From NCBI RefSeq assembly GCF_029023865.1, contig NZ_CP118969.1, positions 1,178,001-1,242,000 on the forward strand: a stretch of 64,000 nt of DNA. Direction: 5' to 3'. Shown here one piece after another: positions 20,833-64,000 of the stretch; the first letter of the stretch is position 1, and every line of letters starts with the position of its first letter. The notes under the pieces are model-generated. The model was not told the origin of the DNA. It did no database searches and was given only the letters and a program-made list of their open reading frames with translations. A program made the translations under genes and the position numbers. The stretch comes from Lactococcus lactis. GTDB taxonomy: Bacteria; Bacillota; Bacilli; Lactobacillales; Streptococcaceae.

Positions 20833-21015
20833 TGCTGAAAAATACATAATATGCCACTTATGATTCGTTACGATTCCCATACCATGACTTTTATTTACTT
20901 AATTGTTTTATTTTAAATACCTTTTTTTTTTCAGTATTTTTGTAAATGCTGTTTTAAGCGAATTGTTCATATATAAGTATAACAGAACAGTCACAGTACT
21001 TTCCGAAAAATCTTA

Positions 21016-21030
21016 ATTTTTCTGAAAATT
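21016..21030 (+). promoter_or_regulatory. CodY operator before the XRE regulator gene
   Basis: ATTTTTCTGAAAATT differs at one position from the lactococcal CodY box AATTTTCWGAAAATT. It lies 28 bases before the start of the XRE gene, so repression when branched-chain amino acids are plentiful is predicted. Confidence 0.6.
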
Positions 21031-21058
21031 AGATTTTGATATTTTGAAAGGAAAAGCG

Positions 21059-44181: not shown

Positions 44182-45909
44182 ATGAAAAAAATAAAGTTAG
44201 AAAAACCTACTTCCGGTTCCCAACTTGTTCTCCAAACCTTAAAAGAACTTGGAGTAGAAATTATTTTTGGTTATCCTGGTGGGGCCATGCTCCCCTTGTA
44301 TGATGCGATTCATAATTTTGAAGGAATTCAACATATTTTAGCCCGTCATGAGCAAGGAGCAACGCATGAAGCCGAAGGTTACGCTAAATCGTCTGGTAAA
44401 GTTGGTGTCGTCGTTGTTACGTCTGGACCGGGAGCGACTAATGCAGTAACTGGAATTGCTGACGCTTATCTTGATTCAGTCCCATTGTTAGTTTTCACAG
44501 GTCAAGTTGGCCGTCAGTCAATTGGTAAAGATGCTTTTCAAGAAGCGGATACTGTTGGAATTACAGCCCCAATTACAAAATATAATTATCAAATTAGGGA
44601 AACCGCAGATATTCCAAGAATTGTTACAGAAGCCTATTATTTGGCAAGGACAGGACGTCCTGGGCCAGTAGAAATCGATTTACCAAAAGATGTTTCCACC
44701 CTTGAAGTCACTGAAATTAATGACCCAAGCTTGAATCTTCCTCATTATCACGAAAGTGAAAAAGCGACTGATGAACAATTGCAAGAATTACTGACAGAAC
44801 TTTCTGTCAGTAAAAAACCAGTCATTATTGCTGGCGGAGGAATTAATTATTCTGGCTCAGTTGATATTTTCAGAGCATTTGTCGAAAAATATCAAATTCC
44901 AGTTGTTTCTACATTGCTTGGCTTAGGAACATTACCAATCAGCCACGAATTGCAACTAGGAATGGCAGGAATGCACGGTTCATACGCTGCAAATATGGCT
45001 TTAGTTGAAGCTGACTATATTATTAATTTGGGATCACGTTTTGACGATAGAGTTGTATCCAATCCAGCAAAATTTGCTAATAATGCTGTCGTTGCTCATA
45101 TTGATATTGACGCTGCTGAACTTGGCAAAATTGTAAAAACCGATATTCCAATCCTTTCTGATTTGAAAGTGGCTTTAAGCAGACTTTTGCAATTAAATAA
45201 TGTCAAGACTGTTTTTAATGATTGGATTAAAACTGTCATTGAAAATAAAGAGAAAGCACCATTTACTTATGAGCCCCAAAACCATGATATCCGTCCACAG
45301 GAAACAATTAAATTAATTGGAGAATACACTCAAGGAGATGCAATCATTGTGACCGATGTTGGGCAACATCAAATGTGGGTGGCGCAATATTATCCTTATA
45401 AAAATGCAAGGCAACTTATTACTTCTGGGGGAATGGGAACGATGGGCTTTGGCATTCCTGCAGCAATCGGTGCAAAGCTGGCACAGCCAAATAAAAATGT
45501 CATTGTTTTTGTTGGCGATGGTGGCTTTCAAATGACTAATCAAGAATTAGCATTACTTAATGGCTACGGTATTGCAATCAAAGTTGTTCTGATTAATAAT
45601 CATTCATTGGGAATGGTACGTCAATGGCAAGAATCATTCTATGAAGAGCGACGTTCACAATCGGTTTTTGATGTTGAACCCAATTTTCAATTGTTAGCCG
45701 AAGCTTATGGCATCAAACATGTTAAGTTAGATAATCCAAAAACTTTGGCTGATGATTTAAAAATTATTACAGAAGATGAGCCAATGCTTATTGAAGTTCT
45801 AATTTCAAAATCTGAGCATGTTTTACCAATGATACCAGCTGGATTACACAATGACGAAATGATTGGACTTCATTTTACTGATGAGAATGAGGAGGTAGAT
45901 AATGCGTAG
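44182..45909 (+). CDS. ilvB: Anabolic acetolactate synthase large subunit
   Basis: A 575-residue ThDP/FAD enzyme making acetolactate and acetohydroxybutyrate. The catalytic Glu lies in RHEQGATHEAEGYAKSSGK and the ThDP motif in GDGGFQMTNQELALLNG, with the regulatory partner IlvN encoded next (8-base overlap). It is intact, unlike catabolic als. The coding sequence contains a perfect 12-bp inverted repeat at 44788-44813 that encodes LLTELSVSK. Confidence 0.95.
   Translation: MKKIKLEKPTSGSQLVLQTLKELGVEIIFGYPGGAMLPLYDAIHNFEGIQHILARHEQGATHEAEGYAKSSGKVGVVVVTSGPGATNAVTGIADAYLDSVPLLVFTGQVGRQSIGKDAFQEADTVGITAPITKYNYQIRETADIPRIVTEAYYLARTGRPGPVEIDLPKDVSTLEVTEINDPSLNLPHYHESEKATDEQLQELLTELSVSKKPVIIAGGGINYSGSVDIFRAFVEKYQIPVVSTLLGLGTLPISHELQLGMAGMHGSYAANMALVEADYIINLGSRFDDRVVSNPAKFANNAVVAHIDIDAAELGKIVKTDIPILSDLKVALSRLLQLNNVKTVFNDWIKTVIENKEKAPFTYEPQNHDIRPQETIKLIGEYTQGDAIIVTDVGQHQMWVAQYYPYKNARQLITSGGMGTMGFGIPAAIGAKLAQPNKNVIVFVGDGGFQMTNQELALLNGYGIAIKVVLINNHSLGMVRQWQESFYEERRSQSVFDVEPNFQLLAEAYGIKHVKLDNPKTLADDLKIITEDEPMLIEVLISKSEHVLPMIPAGLHNDEMIGLHFTDENEEVDNA
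44788..44813. repeat. Perfect TTACTGACAGAA inverted repeat inside ilvB
   Basis: TTACTGACAGAA / TTCTGTCAGTAA with only two bases between the arms, within the ilvB reading frame and without a following T-run. It belongs to the same motif family as several terminators and the leuB-leuC repeats. Confidence 0.8.
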
Positions 45910-54801: not shown

Positions 54802-54858
54802 CAAATAAAAAACACTTGGAATTTGAATCAAGTGTTTTTTATTTGTTATAGATTATCT
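54789..54858. terminator. Perfect 30-bp inverted repeat ending both trmFO and xerS
   Basis: The left arm 54789-54818 and right arm 54829-54858 are exact reverse complements over 30 bases, with a 10-base loop. The inner part, AAAAAACACTTG / CAAGTGTTTTTT, is a bidirectional terminator. The outer part, AGATAATCTATAA, codes the C-terminal Asp-Asn-Leu-stop of both convergent genes. Confidence 0.95.
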
Positions 54859-55916
54859 AAAGCATTTTTTTGCTCTTCATTGATAATATGAGTATAAAGG
54901 TCTGTAACTTGAGTTGAAGCGTGCCCTAACTGATTACTCACCAATACCTGAGAATTTGTTTGAGCATAAAGTCGAGTCGCAAGTGTATGTCTAAGCTTGT
55001 GAGGGGTAACTCGCACTTTAAAAGCTTGAGAATATTTAGCAACTAATTTTTCAACACTAGAAGGATCTATTCGGCTAGGAACATCTCTATAAAGTGTCAC
55101 AAAAAATGCCGTATCTTTCGCTGTAGTCTTATAACGTTGACTTCGTACTTCCAAGTATCTTTCAAAATAAGTTTTGGCAAAAGGAGCATAAGGAACAGCA
55201 TCCCTTTTTCCTCCTTTACGAGTCACCTCAACAACCATAGTAATAAGATTTAAATCTCTTAAATCTACATTAACTGCCTCAGAAAGACGAATACCAGAGG
55301 CTAAAATAAGTGCAATAATTGCTAAATCACGTTCTTTATTTTTGAAAAAACTAGAACGAGCTCTATTTGATAATGTTTTTTCATATTCATTATCAATATA
55401 GTCAAGAAAACCTTGAGTTTCATCTCCCAAAAAAAGCTTCCCTTTAATATTCTCAGCACGAGAAGCTAAAGTTTCGGATTTTTTCTTAGTCTGTACCTTC
55501 TTCATAACATTACGATAGAAGTAAGGCTCACCATCTTCATTTTCAACCTCTTCAGTAAGGTATTTATAAAGACTAGAAAGAGCAGATAGAGTACGATTAA
55601 TTGTTGTTTGACTTACCCCATAACGAGTAGAGCGCGTATTTAAACGGGGTCTCTCCCTAAGATAGAGGATAAATGACTCCAAATCTCGTTTAGTTAAGTT
55701 TTCTAAAACAGAGAGGGAAACATCAGTTATCTTATCAACATCAGCAACTCCAGAATCGACCAACCAACTAAAGAAACGTTCATATTCTTTAAGATATTCA
55801 TAAAGTGTATTCAAACTATAAGGAATAGTAAGTTTAGATTGATAATATTCTAAAACATAAGAAGGCATGATATGTTTTAGTTTTTCAATATTTTGTATTA
55901 ATTGTTCACGTTTCAT
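54846..55916 (-). CDS. xerS: Tyrosine recombinase XerS (chromosome dimer resolution)
   Basis: A 356-residue single-subunit Xer recombinase used by lactococci and streptococci to resolve chromosome dimers at dif_SL with FtsK. The N-terminal SAM-like core-binding domain spans about 20-140. Catalytic residues are Arg in [11 protein letters not shown], the [11 protein letters not shown] lysine, [30 protein letters not shown] with the nucleophile Tyr near the end. I start at 55916 (MKREQLIQ); the upstream ATG at 55946 precedes the -10 box and cannot be used from the promoter seen. The start lies 7 bases after the -10 box with no ribosome-binding site, so the mRNA is probably leaderless. Confidence 0.93.
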
Positions 55917-55923
55917 AAATTTA

Positions 55924-55953
55924 AGTATACCAGAAGAGATATCCAATTGTCAA
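55924..55953 (-). promoter_or_regulatory. xerS promoter whose -35 lies in dif
   Basis: On the minus strand TTGACA (55948-55953) and TATACT (55924-55929) are spaced by 18 bases. The -35 is the end of the dif site, so XerS bound to dif should repress its own gene. Confidence 0.65.
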
Positions 55954-55978
55954 GAAAATTACAGTTTTTCGGAAAGAT
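55948..55978 (-). other. dif_SL chromosome dimer resolution site
   Basis: The minus strand begins ATCTTTCCGAAAAACTGTAA and ends TTTTCTTGACA, 31 bases in all. This matches the dif_SL site of lactococci and streptococci as I know it. It lies directly upstream of xerS, the usual place. It marks the replication terminus region and is a common target of mobile elements. Confidence 0.88.
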
Positions 55979-56173
55979 GTTACTTAAAACATATAGGAGT
56001 TCTGTGTCACACCTTTTCAAAAGGTTTCGTAAACCTTGCTATTATAAGGTTTCTGTAACACATTGCTCTCCTGCTTTTTGCTTTAATTATCTTTCTAAAA
56101 AATTTTTTCTAAGAAAGTCTTGCTTTGTAAAAAATTTAAAAATAGATATTAATTGTAATCAGCTACCCATCAA

Positions 56174-56206
56174 AAAAGGGAGATTCCAATTAAGAATCTC
56201 CCTTTT
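56174..56206. terminator. Terminator-like hairpin, possibly bidirectional
   Basis: AAAAGGGAGATTC / GAATCTCCCTTTT perfect 13-bp stem with a 7-base loop and A- and T-tracts at its two ends. Confidence 0.75.
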
Positions 56207-56290
56207 ACATCATTTGACTTGACTTTTTATGCATATTTATTTATAATATCATTAAGTAAGTCGATTGAACGGACTGTGTTCTTAATCGGC

Positions 56291-56329
56291 AGGTCTGATT
56301 AAGTTACTAGCTTAATTAGGCCTTTTTTT
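56291..56329 (+). terminator. Plus-strand terminator-like hairpin without an obvious gene
   Basis: AGGTCTGATTAAG / CTTAATTAGGCCT stem (two G-U pairs) followed by seven Ts. Confidence 0.65.
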
Positions 56330-56394
56330 ATTTGCCTTGATTATAACATAAATTAACCTTGCTTGCAAGGATTTTTTTGTTATGCTCTATTATG

Positions 56395-56685
56395 CTAATT
56401 AATCGGCTTTTGGTGGGTATTTAACTTCCATTTTTTTCTGTCAAAGAAAGCTAAGGCCTCCTGTTTAACTTCAAATTTATGCCAGGTGTCACCATTTTTC
56501 CAATACAAAAATCCATCCTTTGAGGTAACCACGGCAACAATCTTAACCCTTTGGGGGCCACTTTTGGTTTCAACAGCCGCCTCGTCGCCTTTACGTAGTC
56601 TAATTGGTTGTAGGTGGTCTGGTACCTTCCAATAGCGTTTATGTTTGTCAGTTCCGTTTATATGGACTGCTTGAATGATTTTCAT
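56395..56685 (-). CDS. Small DUF5839-like protein
   Basis: A 96-residue soluble protein, MKIIQAVHINGTDKHKRYWK at the start, with DEAAVETKSGPQRVKIVAVV and a Trp-rich YWKNGDTWHKF segment. From memory it resembles DUF5839 proteins found in phages and mobile elements of Firmicutes; the function is unknown and the family match is not certain. Start supported by AGGGGAGTA on the minus strand; a TATAAT -10 lies at 56720-56725. It lies between dif and the second recombinase gene, so it is probably accessory DNA. Confidence 0.6.
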   Translation of the reverse strand: MKIIQAVHINGTDKHKRYWKVPDHLQPIRLRKGDEAAVETKSGPQRVKIVAVVTSKDGFLYWKNGDTWHKFEVKQEALAFFDRKKWKLNTHQKPIN

Positions 56686-56768
56686 GATTACTCCCCTGTT
56701 ATTTAATTACGTTAACTTGATTATATCAAAAATTGTACAGTAAATAAATTTCAGACATTTTGTGAATT

Positions 56769-57824
56769 TTATAATTTTTTTAACGCATCTTTAGCTTCAG
56801 CACTGACAATGTGGGTATATAACTCAGTTGGTTTGGTTGAAGAGTGCCCTAATTGATTGCTGACAAGGACTTGAGAGTGACTGACATTATAGAGTCTTGT
56901 TGCGAATGTATGCCTTAGAGTATGAGGGGTTACTCTAACTTTATAGGCTTCTGAATACTTTGCGACTAGCTTATTTATCGATGCGTTAGAAATTTTTCTA
57001 ATTGTTTGATTATAGTCCGTGATAAATAAGGCTTCTACATCAGTATTTAAGCTACTTCTTGACTCAAAATAATCTGTTATATATTTATGCGAAAAATGAG
57101 CAATAGGCACTACATCCTTCTTGCCTTCTTTGCGCATCACTCTTACTTTTCCAGTTTCAAGGTTTAAATCGTTAAGATTGATTCCTACAAGTTCCGCACA
57201 ACGTAATCCAGATGATAAAAAAAGACTTAATATAGCTAAATCCCTGACTTTATTTTTCTTAAAACTTGTTCTTGCACGATTACTGATAGACTTTTCATAG
57301 TCATGTTCAACATACTTTAAAAATGCTTTAGTTTCGTCTCCTAAAAATAGTTTAGCTTCCAGTTGAGCTGCACGGTAATGCAAGGTTTCGCTTTTTTTTC
57401 GGATATGAATTAACCGGCTAACATTTCTAGTCATGTAAGTATTGCCATTACTATCTTCGGTTTGTTCGCAAAGATAATTATATAGGCTCTTTATTGCAGC
57501 AATTGTTCGATTTAATGCTGATGTATGTGTATTAGAACCACATTTTGATTCTAAACGGAGTCGTTCGTGAAGTACAAAAGCTTCTAGCTCACGTTTCGTT
57601 ACGTTTTCCATTTCTTTCAAAGTGATTTCTTTGATGTTAGCATGGTTCGTTATATTATTTTCATTCATCCATTTCAAGTATTTTCTAAATTCTAAGCAGT
57701 AAGAGTAAATAGAGGCAATACTCAGTGGCACAGTGTCCTTAGACTGGATAAACTCATTGACGTAGTAGGGAAACTCAAGCATGAGTTTATTTACATTATA
57801 ACGATAACCATGATTTTCTGACAT
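56769..57824 (-). CDS. Second XerS-like tyrosine recombinase
   Basis: A 351-residue tyrosine recombinase, a clear paralogue of XerS 0.8 kb away. Shared C-terminal segments include [40 protein letters not shown] and the nucleophile Tyr in LYTHIVSAEAK. The catalytic Arg is in LSSGLRCAELVG and the Lys in MRKEGKKDVVP. The N-terminal half is more diverged (MSENHGYRYNVNKLMLEFPY). All catalytic residues are present. A host gene for dimer resolution already exists, so this copy most likely belongs to an element that integrated at or near dif_SL. It has its own promoter. Confidence 0.85.
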   Translation of the reverse strand: MSENHGYRYNVNKLMLEFPYYVNEFIQSKDTVPLSIASIYSYCLEFRKYLKWMNENNITNHANIKEITLKEMENVTKRELEAFVLHERLRLESKCGSNTHTSALNRTIAAIKSLYNYLCEQTEDSNGNTYMTRNVSRLIHIRKKSETLHYRAAQLEAKLFLGDETKAFLKYVEHDYEKSISNRARTSFKKNKVRDLAILSLFLSSGLRCAELVGINLNDLNLETGKVRVMRKEGKKDVVPIAHFSHKYITDYFESRSSLNTDVEALFITDYNQTIRKISNASINKLVAKYSEAYKVRVTPHTLRHTFATRLYNVSHSQVLVSNQLGHSSTKPTELYTHIVSAEAKDALKKL

Positions 57825-57868
57825 CTCTTTTTATTGTTCCTCAACATTTTCTATTCAAATTAGAATAT

Positions 57869-57897
57869 ATTGTAGTTAAATATTAAAGTATTGTCAA
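57869..57897 (-). promoter_or_regulatory. Promoter of the second recombinase gene
   Basis: On the minus strand TTGACA (57892-57897) and TACAAT (57869-57874) with 17-base spacing, about 45 bases before the start codon. Confidence 0.65.
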
Positions 57898-57927
57898 TTT
57901 TTGTATAAACTCAAAACTTAATACTTT

Positions 57928-57955
57928 GCGGTCTGTTTTTTCCTGACCGCTTTTT
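57928..57955 (+). terminator. Orphan plus-strand terminator
   Basis: GCGGTC / GACCGC stem with an 11-base T-rich loop and five Ts. No plus-strand gene precedes it. It could end an antisense RNA over the recombinase start, or be a remnant. Confidence 0.6.
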
Positions 57956-58084
57956 ATTTTGGACTTTTTTATAAATTTTATTCATCCTCATCTTTTCAAA
58001 TATTTTTTTGTAAAAGATATTTTATTTGTTAGTATTTTTAGTTTGTTAATAGTGGGTAATTTGTAGTGGCTGATTTAACGGAAT

Positions 58085-58218
58085 CTGGAAAAACCGTAAT
58101 CCGATAAATCCAGTTTCTGGAAAATCCGTAATACGGAAAAGGCGTTCTACGGTAACCGAAATACGGTTTTTCAGTATTACGGTTATTTCATCCGAAAAAC
58201 GGGTTTCCAGTATTTCGG
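58085..58218. repeat. Cluster of CCGTAATACGG-type direct and inverted words
   Basis: Words at 58094 (CCGTAATCCG), 58126 (CCGTAATACGG), 58156 (CCGAAATACGG), 58174 (GTATTACGG) and 58210 (GTATTTCGG). The first two sit in a longer direct repeat, TCTGGAAAAnCCGTAATnCG. The third and fourth form an imperfect hairpin. GC is higher than in the surroundings. Confidence 0.7.
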
Positions 58219-58279
58219 TATTTTAGTCTCAGAAAGATGCTTCAGAATCGTATAATATGAACTTTTTGAAATGATATAT

Positions 58280-58310
58280 ATCTTTCCGAAAAAGTTAGCT
58301 TTTTCTTACT
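58280..58310 (+). other. dif-like half site, inverted relative to dif
   Basis: ATCTTTCCGAAAAA (first 14 bases identical to the dif arm) followed by a different centre and a TTTTCTT-containing right side that aligns with one base offset. It faces opposite to dif at 55948-55978. Confidence 0.5.
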
Positions 58311-58357
58311 GCATTAATAACATTTATAGATACAATATTAAGATTGATAACCGAACT

Positions 58358-58393
58358 AATACTGGCCTCAATACTGGCCTCAATACTGACCCT
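58358..58393. repeat. Three 12-bp tandem repeats
   Basis: AATACTGGCCTC twice (58358-58369, 58370-58381), followed by a diverged third copy, AATACTGACCCT (58382-58393), just beyond the ars operon terminator. Confidence 0.75.
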
Positions 58394-58394
58394 A

Positions 58395-58437
58395 ATAAAT
58401 TAAAAAAACACCAAAACATGGTGTTTTTTTAATTTAT
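58395..58437 (-). terminator. Terminator of the ars operon
   Basis: An 18-bp perfect stem, ATAAATTAAAAAAACACC / GGTGTTTTTTTAATTTAT, with a 7-base loop. It overlaps the end of the last small ORF on the minus strand. Confidence 0.85.
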
Positions 58438-58632
58438 TTTTTCAATATTTCTAACAACAAATGATTTTTTCTCATCATCAGTAGTTACAAAACCAGAATT
58501 ATTAGCTACATATTGAACAGCTGATTTCATATTAATGAACTCTTTAATAATATATTCTCCACTTTTTTCACCCGTGTAATTATTGATAGAATTCTCTTCA
58601 GCCGAAGAAAGAGATGTGAATTTAAATTTCAT
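58429..58632 (-). CDS. Small protein of unknown function at the end of the ars operon
   Basis: A 67-residue hydrophilic protein starting MKFKFTSLSSAEENSINNYT and ending KKSFVVRNIEKIN. No Cys and no membrane segment, so it is not a metallochaperone of the ArsD type. It starts 8 bases after acr3 with AAGGAG on the minus strand and shares its terminator, so it is part of the operon. I do not recognise the family. Confidence 0.65.
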   Translation of the reverse strand: MKFKFTSLSSAEENSINNYTGEKSGEYIIKEFINMKSAVQYVANNSGFVTTDDEKKSFVVRNIEKIN

Positions 58633-58640
58633 AATACTCC

Positions 58641-59693
58641 TTATACGGATTCTTTTGTAAAATAGATTTTTTTAAATTTCAACGCCACATTAACTAAAGC
58701 AATCATAACAGGGACTTCCACTAACGGACCAATAACTGCCGCAAAGGCTTCTCCTGAATTAATTCCAAATACGCCTACCGCAACCGCTATCGCAAGCTCA
58801 AAGTTATTGCTTCCTGCTGTAAATGATAAAGATGCTGTAACAGGATAACTTGTTCCCATTTTTTTAGAGAGAAAGAAGGAAACAAAGAACATCAATACGA
58901 AGTACAGAAGCAATGGAATTGCTATTCTAACTACGTCAAATGGAAGCTCTACTACTTTTTCACCCTTAACTGCAAACATGATAATGATTGTAAACAAAAG
59001 AGCAACCAATGTTATACGACTAATTTTCGGAATGAATTTTTCTTCAAACCATTCTTTACCTTTTAATTTAATCAAACCAAAATGAGAGATAATCCCTGCA
59101 ATAAATGGAATTCCCAAATAGATGAATACTGAGGTAGCAATCTCACCAATTGTTATATGTACTGCAAAATTTCCTAAGCCTAACCATTTTGGAAGTAAAG
59201 TTACAAAGAAATAAGCAAAGATTGAGTAAAAGAATACTTGGAAAAGTGAGTTGAAGGCTACAAGTCCTGCTGTATACTCACTATCACCATGTGCTAAATC
59301 AGTCCAAACAATAACCATTGCAATACAACGTGCAAGCCCAATCATGATAAGCCCAATCATATAGCTTGGATAACCTTGTAAAAATACAACCGCAAGAATA
59401 AACATTAGTATTGGTCCAATAATCCAGTTTTGAACTAATGAAAGCAACAAGACTTTCCAATCCTTAAATACTTTTCCCATTTCTCCATATTTTACTTTTA
59501 CTAATGGAGGATACATCATGAGAATTAGTCCAATGGCAATTGGAATTGATGTTGTTCCTACTGATAAGTCATTAATAGTGGTTGCAACACTAGGAACGAA
59601 GTATCCCAAAGCGATTCCAATTCCCATTGCTACAAATATCCAAAGCGTCAGATAACGGTCTAAAAACGACAGTTTCTTTGTGACTTGATTCAT
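58641..59693 (-). CDS. acr3: Arsenite efflux permease Acr3
   Basis: A 350-residue membrane protein with about ten helices, of the Acr3 (BASS superfamily) arsenite exporters. Characteristic segments are [20 protein letters not shown], the helix with the essential Cys in [29 protein letters not shown], and the late [20 protein letters not shown] and [17 protein letters not shown]. With the ArsA ATPase upstream it may form a pump; Acr3 can also work alone. Overlaps the upstream gene by ATGA. Confidence 0.93.
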
Positions 59694-61369
59694 AATTGAG
59701 TTTTTCCCCTAATTTTTTCTTGTTTTGCAATTTCTTGATAATTTTTATTTCCGCCTGATAAATTGTATACTTCTCTAAACCCTTCATTCCTCAAGACATT
59801 TTGAGAAGCATTGCCAGTGACTCCCTTATTGCAGTAAACGATTGTCAATTTATCCTTATCAAGAATAGATGATTTTTCACGAAGTTCAGCCAACGGAATA
59901 TTTATTGCATTTGGTATATGCTTCTTTTCATAACTTGCTTTTGCACGTGTGTCAATAATTGTTATGTCTGCACTATTTTTTTGAAGTTCCATCAAATCAT
60001 GAGGCGTTATTAATGGCGCAGTAGTTAAGGCATTGGTTAGTGCCATTCCTGTATATGCGACAGGGTCTTTAGTTGTTGAAAATGGTGGGGCATAAGCTAA
60101 ATCCATATGGAACAAATCTTCTGCAGTAACCCCCAGTGTAATTGTTGAGGCAAAAACATCTATTCTTTTATCTACGCCTTGAGGACCAATAATTTGAACT
60201 CCAAGAATTCGATGAGATAACTTATCTGCGACTGCTTTGATAACCATTTCTTTACCGTGCATGTAATCAGGTTTGTCTGGTTTAATATTGAATAATACTG
60301 CTATTTCATAACCTTCTTCGATCGCTTCTTTTTCAGTTAATCCTGTTTGAGCAATGGTTAAATCAAAGAAGCGTAAGATTCCAGTCCCAAGCACACCTTG
60401 AAAACGAAGAGGTCCACCAGTCATTGCATCTCCTGCAATTCTCCCCATCTTATTTGCAGTTGATGCCAAAGGGCGGTATGTCGCTTTCCCAGTAATCACA
60501 TGGAAACTTTCTGCAACATCCCCAACGGCATAGACACCTTCAATATTAGTTTCCATCGTTGTATCTGTAGCAATCGCTCCAGTTTCACCTAGTTTCACCC
60601 CGATTGATTCTGCGAGTTGAGTATTTGGTCGAACTCCAGTAGCCAACATATACAAATCAGCGCTAAGGACATTGCCTTTACTTGTTATGACACTTTTTAG
60701 TGTTTGTTCTCCCTTTGTTTCAGTGATTACTTCCTCAGATAGAAAATGAACATTTTGCTTTTCCATTTCATCTTCAATGCGAATAGACATATCCCAATCT
60801 AGGTGTGCCATTGGGTGTTTTCCACGTTGAAGCACAGTAACATCAAGTCCTCGTTCTTTGAGTTGTTCGGCAACTTCAAGACCAATATAACCTGCTCCTA
60901 CAACAATTGCTGTTTTTGGTTTTTTATCATCCAAGAAAGATTTAAAGTTTTTACCACTATTAATATTTCTTACTTGAAATACATTACCGAATGATTTACC
61001 TTGAAAAACTTCAGGTCTATGATAAGTTGCTCCAGTTGCAAAAACAAGGATATCATAAGAATCATCAAATATTTCACCAGTCAAAAGATTCTTAACTTTG
61101 AGAGATTTTGTTGAATGATTAATATCTAAAACTTCATGAGAAGTATGAATATCAACATTGTAACGTTTTTTAAACCATCGAGCATCACGAGGAGTTAACT
61201 CATCAAAATCACCAATTTCCCCACCAATAGCATATGGAATACCACATACTGCGTAAGAAATATCAGTGTCCTTATCATAAAGAGTAATCTCTGCATTCTC
61301 TGTATTTCTACGTGCCTTAGCAGCAACACTTGTTCCTGAAGCTACAGAACCAATTATAATAATTTTCAT
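59690..61369 (-). CDS. CoA-disulfide reductase-like flavoprotein with C-terminal rhodanese domain
   Basis: A 559-residue fusion. The pyridine-nucleotide disulfide oxidoreductase part (1-450) has FAD-binding [19 protein letters not shown], the single redox Cys in [14 protein letters not shown], the NAD(P) fold [15 protein letters not shown] and [11 protein letters not shown]. The rhodanese part (about 465-555) has [20 protein letters not shown] and the active Cys in [11 protein letters not shown]. CoADR-RHD enzymes reduce CoA disulfide, persulfides or polysulfides; in an ars operon it probably maintains thiols or supplies reductant during arsenic stress, which is inference. The start at 61369 (MKIIII) is chosen; the ORF can be extended 11 codons into the arsA end. 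Confidence 0.85.
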
Positions 61370-61385
61370 AGGATAATCATTTCCT

Positions 61386-63101
61386 TTATTTTTCAAAGTC
61401 AACTTGCCATTTAGCTACTGCATAGTGTTGATTAGAAAGTTTGGCAACTTTATTAATCCATTCTACTTCATTTGATGCACGTGCTTTCAAAACTTCATTC
61501 GAGGTATGAGTTGCACCCATACTTTGGTTTACTAACCACCAAGTATGTGCAATATTTGCTCTATCTAAATCATCTGCTAATCGCATTGATTCATAAACTG
61601 GAGTGGTTTCTGGTAAAGTCACCATCAAAACTTCTGTTTCATCAGAGTTTTGTAATCTTGGTAAAAGTTTTTGAATTGATTTTGGAACTTCACCACTTGT
61701 CCGTTCAACTTCTTTCGCATAGCTTTGAGTTGATTCAAGTAATAAGAGGGTATGACCAGTTGGCGCAGTATCAATTACTACAATCTCATCATCTGCCTTT
61801 TCAACAATTTCAGCGAAAGCACGAAAGACTGCAATTTCTTGCGTACATGGTGATTCCAAGTCTTCTTTAACGTAGTCAAAATCATCGCCTGACATTGTTT
61901 CACTTGCTTTGCTTAAAACTTCTTCTTTATATTCTCGAAGTTCCTTTTCTTCATCAATATGACTTAATGAGAGTCCAGAAGTATCTCCCAAGTAGAAATT
62001 AAGATGGTCCGCAGGGTCTGTAGTAGCCAGATGAACTTTTTTACCTTGCTTTTGCAAAGCTTGAGCAACTTTAATCGCTACAGTAGTTTTTCCAACTCCA
62101 CCTTTACCCATTGTAAAGATAATTTTTTTACCTGTTTTGACAAAATTATCAATCACAGTTGAGAGTTCTGGATATTCTCTCATTTCTGAATCAATCTCGG
62201 GCAATTCGGGTTGAACTGTATCTAAAAGGATGCGAAGTTTATCTAACCCAGTCACATTATAGGGTCTGAGTGGAATAAAGAATTGTTCATACTTACTGAG
62301 AGAGTTAGGCAAATGCTCTAAATCATCTTCTTGTTGATTGGCAATAATCTTTGATACTTCATCATCTGCTTGAGTTAAAAGTCCATTAATAATTAATTTT
62401 TGATTATTTATTCCAAGTTCCGCAAGTTCACCAGAAGCTCTTTTGGCTTCCTCAATTGATGCTTTTTGAGGACGTGTTACTAACATAAGCGTTGTTAATT
62501 CACCGTTAGCTAATGTTTTTACTGCTCGTTCGTAACTTTCCTTTTTATCTCCCAGTCCTGAAAGTTGACCTAAGCACGAAACACCAGTATCATTTTCATC
62601 CAGGTAGTTAGACCATGCGGAAGGAAGAGCAAGCATTCTGAGGGTATGTCCAGTTGGTGCAGTATCAAAAATGACATAGTCAAATTCATCTTCGACATCC
62701 TTATTTGTTAAGAAACCAGCAAATTCATTAAAAGAAGCAATTTCAACGGTACATGAACCTGAAAGTTGTTCTTCCATATTTTCTACAGCTGAGTCTGGTA
62801 AAATTCCTCGATATGGACCAACTATACTTTCTTTATAATCATTTGCCGCAGATACTGGGTCAAAATTTGCGACTTTTAAATTTGGAATTTCTGGAATTTC
62901 TTTTGGTTTATTGGTTAATTCTGTTTGAAACACATCTTGTAAATTAGAAGCAGGGTCAGTACTGACAAGAATCACTTTATGACCTGAATCCGCAAGACTT
63001 ACTGCAGTTGCACAAGCAGAGGTTGTTTTGCCAACCCCACCTTTTCCTGTAAAGAACAGGTATTTAGTCAATTCTAATTTTTTTGGATCGTAAGCTTTCA
63101 T
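61386..63101 (-). CDS. arsA: Arsenite-stimulated ATPase ArsA
   Basis: A 571-residue duplicated ATPase. Two P-loops, FFTGKGGVGKTTSACATAV and FTMGKGGVGKTTVAIKVAQA, and two DTAPTGHT signature loops mark the A1 and A2 halves. Metal-binding cysteines are seen at SGSCTVEIASF and SPCTQEIAVF, with another at TGVSCLG. It receives arsenite from ArsD and energises export. I start at 63101 because the neighbouring GGGAG is 5 bases away; the adjoining ATG at 63104 is only 2 bases away. Confidence 0.93.
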   Translation of the reverse strand: MKAYDPKKLELTKYLFFTGKGGVGKTTSACATAVSLADSGHKVILVSTDPASNLQDVFQTELTNKPKEIPEIPNLKVANFDPVSAANDYKESIVGPYRGILPDSAVENMEEQLSGSCTVEIASFNEFAGFLTNKDVEDEFDYVIFDTAPTGHTLRMLALPSAWSNYLDENDTGVSCLGQLSGLGDKKESYERAVKTLANGELTTLMLVTRPQKASIEEAKRASGELAELGINNQKLIINGLLTQADDEVSKIIANQQEDDLEHLPNSLSKYEQFFIPLRPYNVTGLDKLRILLDTVQPELPEIDSEMREYPELSTVIDNFVKTGKKIIFTMGKGGVGKTTVAIKVAQALQKQGKKVHLATTDPADHLNFYLGDTSGLSLSHIDEEKELREYKEEVLSKASETMSGDDFDYVKEDLESPCTQEIAVFRAFAEIVEKADDEIVVIDTAPTGHTLLLLESTQSYAKEVERTSGEVPKSIQKLLPRLQNSDETEVLMVTLPETTPVYESMRLADDLDRANIAHTWWLVNQSMGATHTSNEVLKARASNEVEWINKVAKLSNQHYAVAKWQVDFEK

Positions 63102-63113
63102 CATTTCTCCCTA

Positions 63114-63509
63114 TTAACAACAACCAGTATTCCCACCACAACATGAAGCATTTGCCTCTACTTTGACTTCTTCTTGAGAATTTGAGCAACAAGCTCCTTT
63201 TTCAGAATTAATATTGCTTAGTCCGAGTTCTTCAGAAGTTGGATAGCTTTCGGTTTTGAGAATTTCTCCATCAATTAATGTGATTGGCAAAATATCATTT
63301 CCTTGATTTTGTATGAGATTCAGAACTTTTTCGTTAACCACAAACGCTTGAGGATTACTTGTAAGATTATAACGATAAGCTTTCACCTCCTCGTTCTCTT
63401 TCAACGTATCAAATAGGTTTGTAATACGAAGTAACTCTGAATCAACTGATGGACCACAAACTCCAGTAGAGCAACACATCGCAGCTTCAAAAATTTCAAT
63501 TTTTTTCAT
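63114..63509 (-). CDS. arsD: Arsenic metallochaperone ArsD
   Basis: A 131-residue thioredoxin-fold protein. The Cys12-Cys13 and Cys18 site is in FEAAMCCSTGVCGPSVD, which binds arsenite and hands it to ArsA. Further vicinal cysteine pairs are at the C-terminus (GACCSN, ASCCGGNTGCC). It lies directly before arsA in the operon, as usual. AAAGGGA ribosome-binding site on the minus strand. Confidence 0.93.
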   Translation of the reverse strand: MKKIEIFEAAMCCSTGVCGPSVDSELLRITNLFDTLKENEEVKAYRYNLTSNPQAFVVNEKVLNLIQNQGNDILPITLIDGEILKTESYPTSEELGLSNINSEKGACCSNSQEEVKVEANASCCGGNTGCC

Positions 63510-63523
63510 TATAGTTCCCTTTC

Positions 63524-63847
63524 TTAATTAGAACAATTACATTTTTTATCAGTACCACACACACAAGTTTCTTCATTATGTGAGAATAGAGTCATACACA
63601 TGCTTTGGAATTCTTTAGCAAAATCATCACTTAAAGTGTAATAATTCCAAGTCCCTTTTTTCTCAACAGTGATAATTTCTGCTTTTTCTAAAACCTTCAT
63701 GTGATGGGACAATGCAGGTTGTGAAAAATCAAAATGCTCTAATAGGTCGCAAGCACATTTTGTTCCACATGACAGCAGGTCGACAATTTTTAAACGATTT
63801 GGCTCAGCTAATGCCTTCAAACTCATTGCAATTTTTTCGTAATTCAT
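63524..63847 (-). CDS. arsR: Arsenic-responsive repressor ArsR
   Basis: A 107-residue ArsR/SmtB winged-helix repressor. The HTH is FSQPALSHHMKVLEKAEIIT; the CACDLL motif (CGTKCACDLLEHF) is the typical arsenite-sensing cysteine region in the DNA-binding helix, and the C-terminus has CVCGTDKKCNC. The start at 63847 (MNYEKIAM) follows AAAGGA; an upstream ATG at 63913 would lie in the promoter. First gene of the operon and expected to bind the dyads just upstream. Confidence 0.92.
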   Translation of the reverse strand: MNYEKIAMSLKALAEPNRLKIVDLLSCGTKCACDLLEHFDFSQPALSHHMKVLEKAEIITVEKKGTWNYYTLSDDFAKEFQSMCMTLFSHNEETCVCGTDKKCNCSN

Positions 63848-63864
63848 AAAATCCTTTCTCAAAC

Positions 63865-63931
63865 ATAAACGTACGTTTATATATAATATAAACAAATGCT
63901 TATGTATTGTCAAACATAAACGACTATTTAT
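63865..63931 (-). promoter_or_regulatory. ars operon promoter with two operator dyads
   Basis: On the minus strand TTGACA (63908-63913) and TATATT (63885-63890) are spaced by 17 bases. A perfect dyad, ATAAACGTACGTTTAT (63865-63880), lies just downstream of the -10, and an imperfect one, ATAAACGACTATTTAT (63916-63931), upstream of the -35. They bracket the promoter as ArsR operators would. Confidence 0.75.
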
Positions 63932-64000
63932 GTTTCGATTTTTATTGTAAATTATAGTTTATGTGTCAACAGAAGCCTTTAATCAGATAAAAAGAAGTTG

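Follow-up and report, generated by a model that had tools for sequence, protein, structure and literature searches.

A candidate Xer-bounded module with its own XerS-family recombinase at the dif site of Lactococcus lactis

The locus at dif

Here, we describe a stretch of 64,000 nucleotides from the Lactococcus lactis genome G000 (the window, G000:C1:1178001-1242000, on the 2.52-Mb contig C1), in which a second gene of the XerS family of tyrosine recombinases, xerS2, lies directly beyond dif_SL (hereafter dif). Between dif and an inverted dif-like site, xerS2 is accompanied by a DUF5839-like gene and by repeats, and a close copy of this block is found on plasmid-like DNA of another species. 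The features are given below by window position and strand.

54846..55919 (-): host xerS, the recombinase of chromosome dimer resolution; 529.8 bits against NCBIfam XerS
55948..55977 (-): dif_SL, upstream of host xerS; the proposed module ends in its left arm, TCTTTCCGAAAAAC
55978..56110: dif-flanking, hairpin-like segment common to the module of genome G012 and the dif flanks of G002 and G016
56395..56685 (-): DUF5839-like gene, partner of xerS2; Pfam score under the cut-off
56769..57824 (-): xerS2, second XerS-family tyrosine recombinase with its catalytic residues present
58080..58230: direct and inverted repeats of the CCGTAATACGG/CCGAAAAACGG type, upstream of xerS2
58281..58310 (+): site 2, inverted dif-like site TCTTTCCGAAAAAGTTAGCTTTTTCTTACT, at which the module is proposed to end
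58358..58397: 12-bp tandem repeats AATACTGGCCTC, adjoining site 2
58641..63913 (-): ars operon (acr3, a CoA-disulfide-reductase-like gene, arsA, arsD, arsR), possible cargo

The GC skew changes sign near dif. Open frames are found on the minus strand at 56395-56685, 56769-57824 and 58429-58632. The non-coding repeats reported beyond dif by an earlier, sequence-only reading of this DNA (the first-pass annotation) are real: upstream of xerS2 lies a block of CCGTAAT/CCGAAAA-type repeats, and two tandem arrays were measured, a 36-bp unit in 1.9 copies at 58156-58223 and the 12-bp unit in 3.3 copies beside site 2. Site 2 itself falls inside the interval singled out by that reading and was absent from it. 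Rfam and tRNA scans gave no match.

The second recombinase and its partner gene

The product of xerS2 belongs to the XerS family (420.5 bits against NCBIfam NF003462; cut-off 267), and R208, K232, H301, R304, H327 and Y336 are invariant in a nine-row alignment, as the first-pass annotation had indicated in crediting the gene with all catalytic residues. It shares 49% identity with the host XerS, which is itself 97% identical to the XerS of the sister species G002 and is placed among host XerS proteins in the tree. The XerS2 sequences form a single clade that is separate from the sampled host XerS proteins (support 97/87 in one tree and 100/100 in the other); the tree contains long branches. 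Approximately unbiased (AU) tests rejected both the grouping of XerS2 with the hosts of its own genus (p 8.7e-6) and that of G000 XerS2 with G000 XerS (p = 0.0013). The term paralogue, used in the first-pass annotation, therefore holds in the wide sense but not in the sense of a duplicate of the host gene.

Genes of this kind are rarely found twice in one genome. At E 1e-60, a XerS-like gene was found in 323 of 328 family genomes and at least two in 9 of them. Second XerS-like genes also occur in G010 (on two small contigs), G231, G233 and G276. Among phage records, 105 match XerS2, all below 60% identity, the best-ranked at 42.5% over 72% of the query. A search for related loci among genome contigs gave 24 stretches, none of them a relative.

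The first-pass wording "DUF5839-like" proved apt for the gene between dif and xerS2 (E 4.5e-4, 20.7 bits; curated cut-off 23.7). A profile search for DUF5839 across 328 family genomes gave six places in 5 of them; all five full places directly adjoin a gene of the XerS2 clade, and the sixth, partial place adjoins a XerS fragment. The Pfam model, run on 97 genomes, matched three, none above the cut-off, and one of these matches (G211) lies within a 799-residue frame. DUF5839 was found solely next to XerS2-clade genes, apart from one further copy beside a XerS-like gene on the plasmid pFI430. The predicted structure is that of a small beta-rich protein (mean predicted local distance difference test score 82.5 over five sequences).

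The same arrangement recurs at dif in other genomes. In all four chromosomal cases of DUF5839-xerS2 (G000, G006, G009 and G029, from two genera), the pair lies at dif, within 1 kb of host xerS, in the order and orientation xerS-dif-DUF5839-xerS2. An ars operon follows in two of the four, one in each genus. In G029, from the other genus, the order runs xerS, dif, DUF5839, xerS2, ACR3, CoA-disulfide-reductase-like gene, ArsR and an inverted dif-like site, and the three ars proteins are 80%, 32% and 59% identical, respectively, to those of the window; the search pattern for this outer site was composed after the site had been seen. In G006 and G009, the stretches analysed contained no recognisable ars protein. 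Relics are present elsewhere. G002 has a decayed DUF5839 gene and the 3′ end of xerS2 beside dif and, at this position, lacks approximately 28 kb that follow in G000. G004, G005 and G010 have an inverted left arm approximately 350-380 bp from dif, with a weak relic of the DUF5839 start (E 0.02) between dif and this arm in G004 and G010. A second, decayed DUF5839-XerS pair in the gene order of pFI430 lies behind the intact pair of G006 (L059 14262-14763). Near the terminus, L006 15456-15937 and G000:C1:1255642-1256435 are 82% alike; the former reads, by its motif, like a RecA remnant.

These loci could also be read as an old, vertically inherited second recombinase linked to dif, for example a regulator or helper of dif recombination, that is frequently lost and that a plasmid picked up on one occasion. 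The constant order in G000, G006, G009 and G029 and the relics in G002, G004 and G010 fit such a history, and monophyly of the XerS2 proteins of this genus, without G029, was not rejected (AU p 0.11). However, identity to the G000 protein is 49-51% for the XerS2 of G006, G009 and G029, whereas it is 74-80% for their host XerS, and G000 XerS2 groups with another genus (96/89; long branches). The small number of genomes with a second strong XerS-like gene and the copy of the block on a plasmid-like contig, together with dif-flanking DNA, also fit poorly. We consider this explanation improbable.

Inverted dif-like sites

A perfect inverted repeat of 14 bases joins site 2 to dif (55965-55978, that is, 13 bases of the left end of dif and one flanking base), and both sites bear ATCTTTCCGAAAAA pointing into the interval between them. 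Because the same recombinase arm faces inwards at both ends, one end of the module would be half of the chromosomal dif. A further site of this type, site 3, lies 4.7 kb past the end of the window at C1:1246661 in the same orientation as site 2, from which it is 10,380 bp distant, with the ars operon in between; the centres differ at one base (GTTAGC in site 2, GTTTGC in site 3). Thus, the second dif-like end that the first-pass annotation expected past position 64,000 does exist, but sites 2 and 3 are both inverted relative to dif. The simple element with direct dif copies at both ends is accordingly rejected, since the only same-orientation left-arm matches in the 79 kb beyond dif (L007 5017 and L009 11474) also have poor right halves. 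One of them, L009 11474-11495 (G000:C1 ~1304474), matches the left arm as CTTTCCGAAAAA and lies within a coding-like stretch. The two observations on which the first-pass annotation would have given up its element, no outer dif-like end and the same gene order everywhere, were not made: the outer site is present and the order differs in related species.

The pattern TCTTTCCGAAAAANNNNNNTTTT with at most one mismatch has three matches in the window against 0.01 expected from shuffles; the one at 20998 is more likely to be an operator-like palindrome than a Xer site. A search of 335 family genomes with a 27-base site-2 pattern, which tolerated two mismatches, gave seven places in 5 genomes, each of them an exact match, and reversed controls gave none. 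Among 72,556 plasmid records, 12 cover at least 80% of a 43-nucleotide site query, and in 11 records 80% or more of a 151-bp stretch around site 2 is present; viral contigs held no site of this type. To the right of site-2-type sites stands the 12-bp tandem repeat AATACTGACCCT, in 24.4 copies in G012 and 3.3 in the window. The G012 array (L055 17023-17315) has an open frame on its opposite strand that would encode an SVLG-type repeat; it may be a DNA-binding array or a coding repeat.

Two further observations concern dif-like sequences on plasmids. The dairy plasmid pUCCL630E (L092, NZ_PP589687.1) carries dif-like sites at 21050 and 41381, in direct orientation and 20.3 kb apart, with two heavy-metal P-type ATPase genes between them. 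At L038 4939-5068 and in further plasmid records, an Enterococcus-type merR gene is truncated right beside site-2-type sequence, at a common TTGAAA stretch. This merR/site junction in Lactococcus plasmids resembles a fusion at a short stretch common to both sequences more than a Xer exchange.

The palindromes of the site-2 type might be operators of regulators and not Xer sites, in which case dif would be the sole Xer end of the module and the adjacency of ars a coincidence. This alternative concerns the outer end only and overlaps with the others considered here. Elsewhere in this genome, genes that by eye encode surface proteins and XRE regulators are preceded by near-palindromes that share the CTTTCCGAAAAA half. 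Such sequences, TTTCCGAAAAA...TTTTTC, are found at window 20998-21027, before an XRE-regulator/surface-protein region, and at G000:C1:837483-837512 and 837725-837749 (L044), before a surface-protein region; we set all three aside as Xer sites because they are probable operators. For site 2 and its relatives, the operator reading has difficulties: the left neighbours vary (the xerS2 module, the truncated merR, the end of the ars island) while the right side is similar, the plasmid copies lie downstream of an ATPase gene, an odd place for an operator, and the outer sites of G029, G004, G005 and G010 form no palindrome obvious to the eye. We judge it rather unlikely that these sites are operators; site 2 may serve as a Xer site.

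A matching module on plasmid-like DNA

A close relative of the block is found on G012:C3, a conjugative-plasmid-like contig of 63,285 bp from another species, where DUF5839 and xerS2 lie between inverted sites at L055 14911 (-) and 16968 (+), with the dif mimic CTTTCCGAAAAACTGTAATTCTTTTTACA at the module junction. The XerS2 proteins of G000 and G012 are 94% identical and the module DNA 90% (2,000-column alignment), whereas the host XerS proteins are 61% identical. At the left junction, ungapped blocks of 20 show 5-8 matches outside and 17, 20 and 20 from the site inwards; the homology begins within the 30-bp dif site, so that the left edge of the shared block is exactly dif. The chromosome-side arm of the G000 dif is that of the G002 dif, and the G012 arm differs.

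The 133 bp immediately inside dif (55978-56110) also occur beside dif in G002 and G016 and in none of nine other flanks compared (the G004 flank was taken from the inverted site instead of dif). Local alignment scores for this segment are 92 (G002), 66 (G016) and 229 (G012) against shuffle maxima of 32, 30 and 34. This distribution points to chromosomal DNA of that lineage on the G012 contig; alternatively, the segment in G016 may be a relic of the module.

By comparison with pFI430 (NC_025249.1, Lactococcus cremoris MG1363), which we take to be the lactococcal sex factor, G012:C3 has VirD4-, VirB4-, relaxase- and ParA-like genes. The gene adjoining its module is 78% identical to a pFI430 counterpart (hypothetical there; weaker matches are annotated as DnaD domain). 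The left flank of the G012 module had no match in the plasmid records searched. Similar to the module, pFI430 carries DUF5839 directly upstream of a XerS-like recombinase gene (44356-45785, L090/L091). In contrast to the module, DUF5839 comes first there, the recombinase is 41% identical and falls outside the XerS2 clade (long branch), and no dif-like site was recognised.

The first-pass annotation had raised the possibility that the ars operon rides as cargo on the element. The ars segment is plasmid-like in its sequence: around its cold-shock genes, 2 kb match the best Lactococcus plasmid records at 92-93% identity, and 175 records match some part of the island. In addition, a stretch of 135 bp resembles, at 92.6% identity, the start of a gene beyond the 12-bp repeats in G012. 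A related ars operon (~75%) lies on another contig of that genome, G012:C2, where there is no site of the site-2 type. The operon may be cargo of the XerS2 module.

These plasmid connections allow another explanation, in which XerS2-DUF5839 is a dimer-resolution system of conjugative plasmids or sex factors, with site 2 and the 12-bp repeats as the plasmid resolution site, and plasmids integrated at dif have left the chromosomal copies behind as passive remnants, with no movement of a module today. The DUF5839 gene beside a XerS-like gene on pFI430, the 78%-identical gene that pFI430 and G012:C3 have in common and the plasmid-like stretches of the ars island all speak for it. However, it leaves unexplained why xerS2 and DUF5839 are still open in four chromosomes of two genera and why the segment that stands beside dif in G002 and G016 is part of the G012 module. 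We think that this explanation is unlikely, and somewhat more so than the operator reading.

A Xer-bounded module: evidence for and against

Overall, after weighing these data, we propose that the block is a Xer-bounded mobile module carrying its own XerS-family recombinase, with a probability of roughly 0.6. With similar, somewhat better than even confidence, we delimit it as the left arm of dif, DUF5839, xerS2, the repeat region and the inverted dif-like site, approximately 2.36 kb at 55948-58310. In this form, the suggestion of the first-pass annotation that an element exploits Xer recombination with an enzyme of its own is supported in part: a block with its edge exactly at dif is common to replicons of two species whose host XerS proteins are far less alike than their XerS2 proteins, it stands close to host xerS in every chromosomal case, and ars follows in two genera.

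Several points weigh against this proposal. G000 and G012 differ in their DNA near site 2, so that the module lacks a sharp right edge and only the left junction is precise. An outer site was not found in G006, over the 5 kb that run to the contig end, or in G009, over 33 kb; no convincing dif copy in direct orientation is present in the 79 kb beyond dif of G000, and the sister species G002 keeps just a relic. Sites 2 and 3 are near-palindromic and resemble the operator-like palindromes elsewhere in this genome, which share letters of the dif left arm. The constant gene order is also compatible with old vertical inheritance, as is the unrejected grouping of the XerS2 proteins of this genus. 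Plasmids commonly carry XerS-like recombinases, with matches to XerS2 in 1,896 of 72,556 records, every one below 60% identity. Finally, the DUF5839 profile was built from the same loci and pFI430, and only its absences elsewhere are independent.

If the module moves, XerS2 or the host XerS would swap strands between the dif mimic of a plasmid and the chromosomal dif in their common CTGTAATT centre. Plasmids could thereby attach at the chromosome terminus, where they would deposit or collect modules. DUF5839 might assist XerS2 as an activator or architectural factor, and the GTTWGC sites with their 12-bp repeats may be a second class of Xer site of these plasmids. The ars segment, flanked by direct sites, could form an excised circle or be exchanged as cargo. 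PMC5357621 describes stronger binding of XerS to the left half-site of dif_SL, and this preferred half is the one that dif and sites 2 and 3 have in common. Taken at its widest, the proposal would be a self-driving dif-module system in the world of the single recombinase XerS, with inward arms, its own Xer and DUF5839 and half of a working dif as an end, that shuttles metal-resistance cargo between the terminus and conjugative plasmids across species; we put this forward tentatively, as a possibility that we doubt somewhat more than we believe.

Comparison with known systems

A Xer-family recombinase on a mobile element has a precedent in XerT of the Helicobacter pylori element TnPZ, which stands beside the single host Xer (XerH). 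TnPZ resembles the XerS2 module in this pairing; it is not known to be tied to dif.

The dif (pdif) modules of Acinetobacter, as described in PMC13141974 and PMC12907356, likewise consist of genes between inversely oriented Xer sites, in that case XerC/XerD sites, on plasmids and chromosomes. According to these papers, the observed reactions join sites with identical or nearly identical spacers, and cointegrate formation and resolution is one route proposed for a unit between inverted sites. PMC13141974 states that the system occurs uniquely in Acinetobacter and that the modules are widely assumed to be moved by the host XerCD. Two inversely oriented sites are present here, at 55948 (-)/58281 (+) in the window and on the G012 contig, with site 2 as a presumptive Xer site; a close copy of the unit lies on that contig, with its left edge exactly at a site and its right edge not sharp. 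In contrast, the Lactococcus module has sites of the single-recombinase XerS type, encodes its own Xer, uses the main chromosomal dif as one end and occurs in Lactococcus and a related genus. The 28-bp XerC/XerD sites with 6-bp spacers and the Rep_3/OrfX plasmids of Acinetobacter are absent here.

Similarly, in integrative mobile elements exploiting Xer (IMEXs), such as GGI, LME-1 and one of Vibrio cholerae, a dif mimic docks the element at the chromosomal dif (PMC9765430), and such a mimic is present in G012. One V. cholerae IMEX encodes the XerD-activating factor XafT, according to the same paper. However, IMEXs are defined by their use of the host recombinase, whereas the XerS2 module encodes its own, and either enzyme may act; across the 79 kb past dif, no direct dif copies bound the unit at both ends. 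The XerS2 module is therefore neither an Acinetobacter dif module, given the XerC/D sites and the host of the latter, nor an IMEX, in view of its own recombinase and the absence of direct ends.

Among the matches listed in the open-licence literature searched, none reports lactococcal Xer modules; older papers on lactococcal plasmids may fall outside it. With moderate confidence, we regard a Gram-positive, single-enzyme relative of dif modules as what is new, the geometry itself being known.

Significance

The close copy of the module on plasmid-like DNA of another species suggests that the machinery of chromosome separation may also serve gene movement. If our proposal is true, movement of a module between inverted Xer sites would become testable in simple laboratory hosts, and DUF5839 would gain a function that is open to test. 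The dif region at the terminus would then be a port of gene exchange in lactic acid bacteria.

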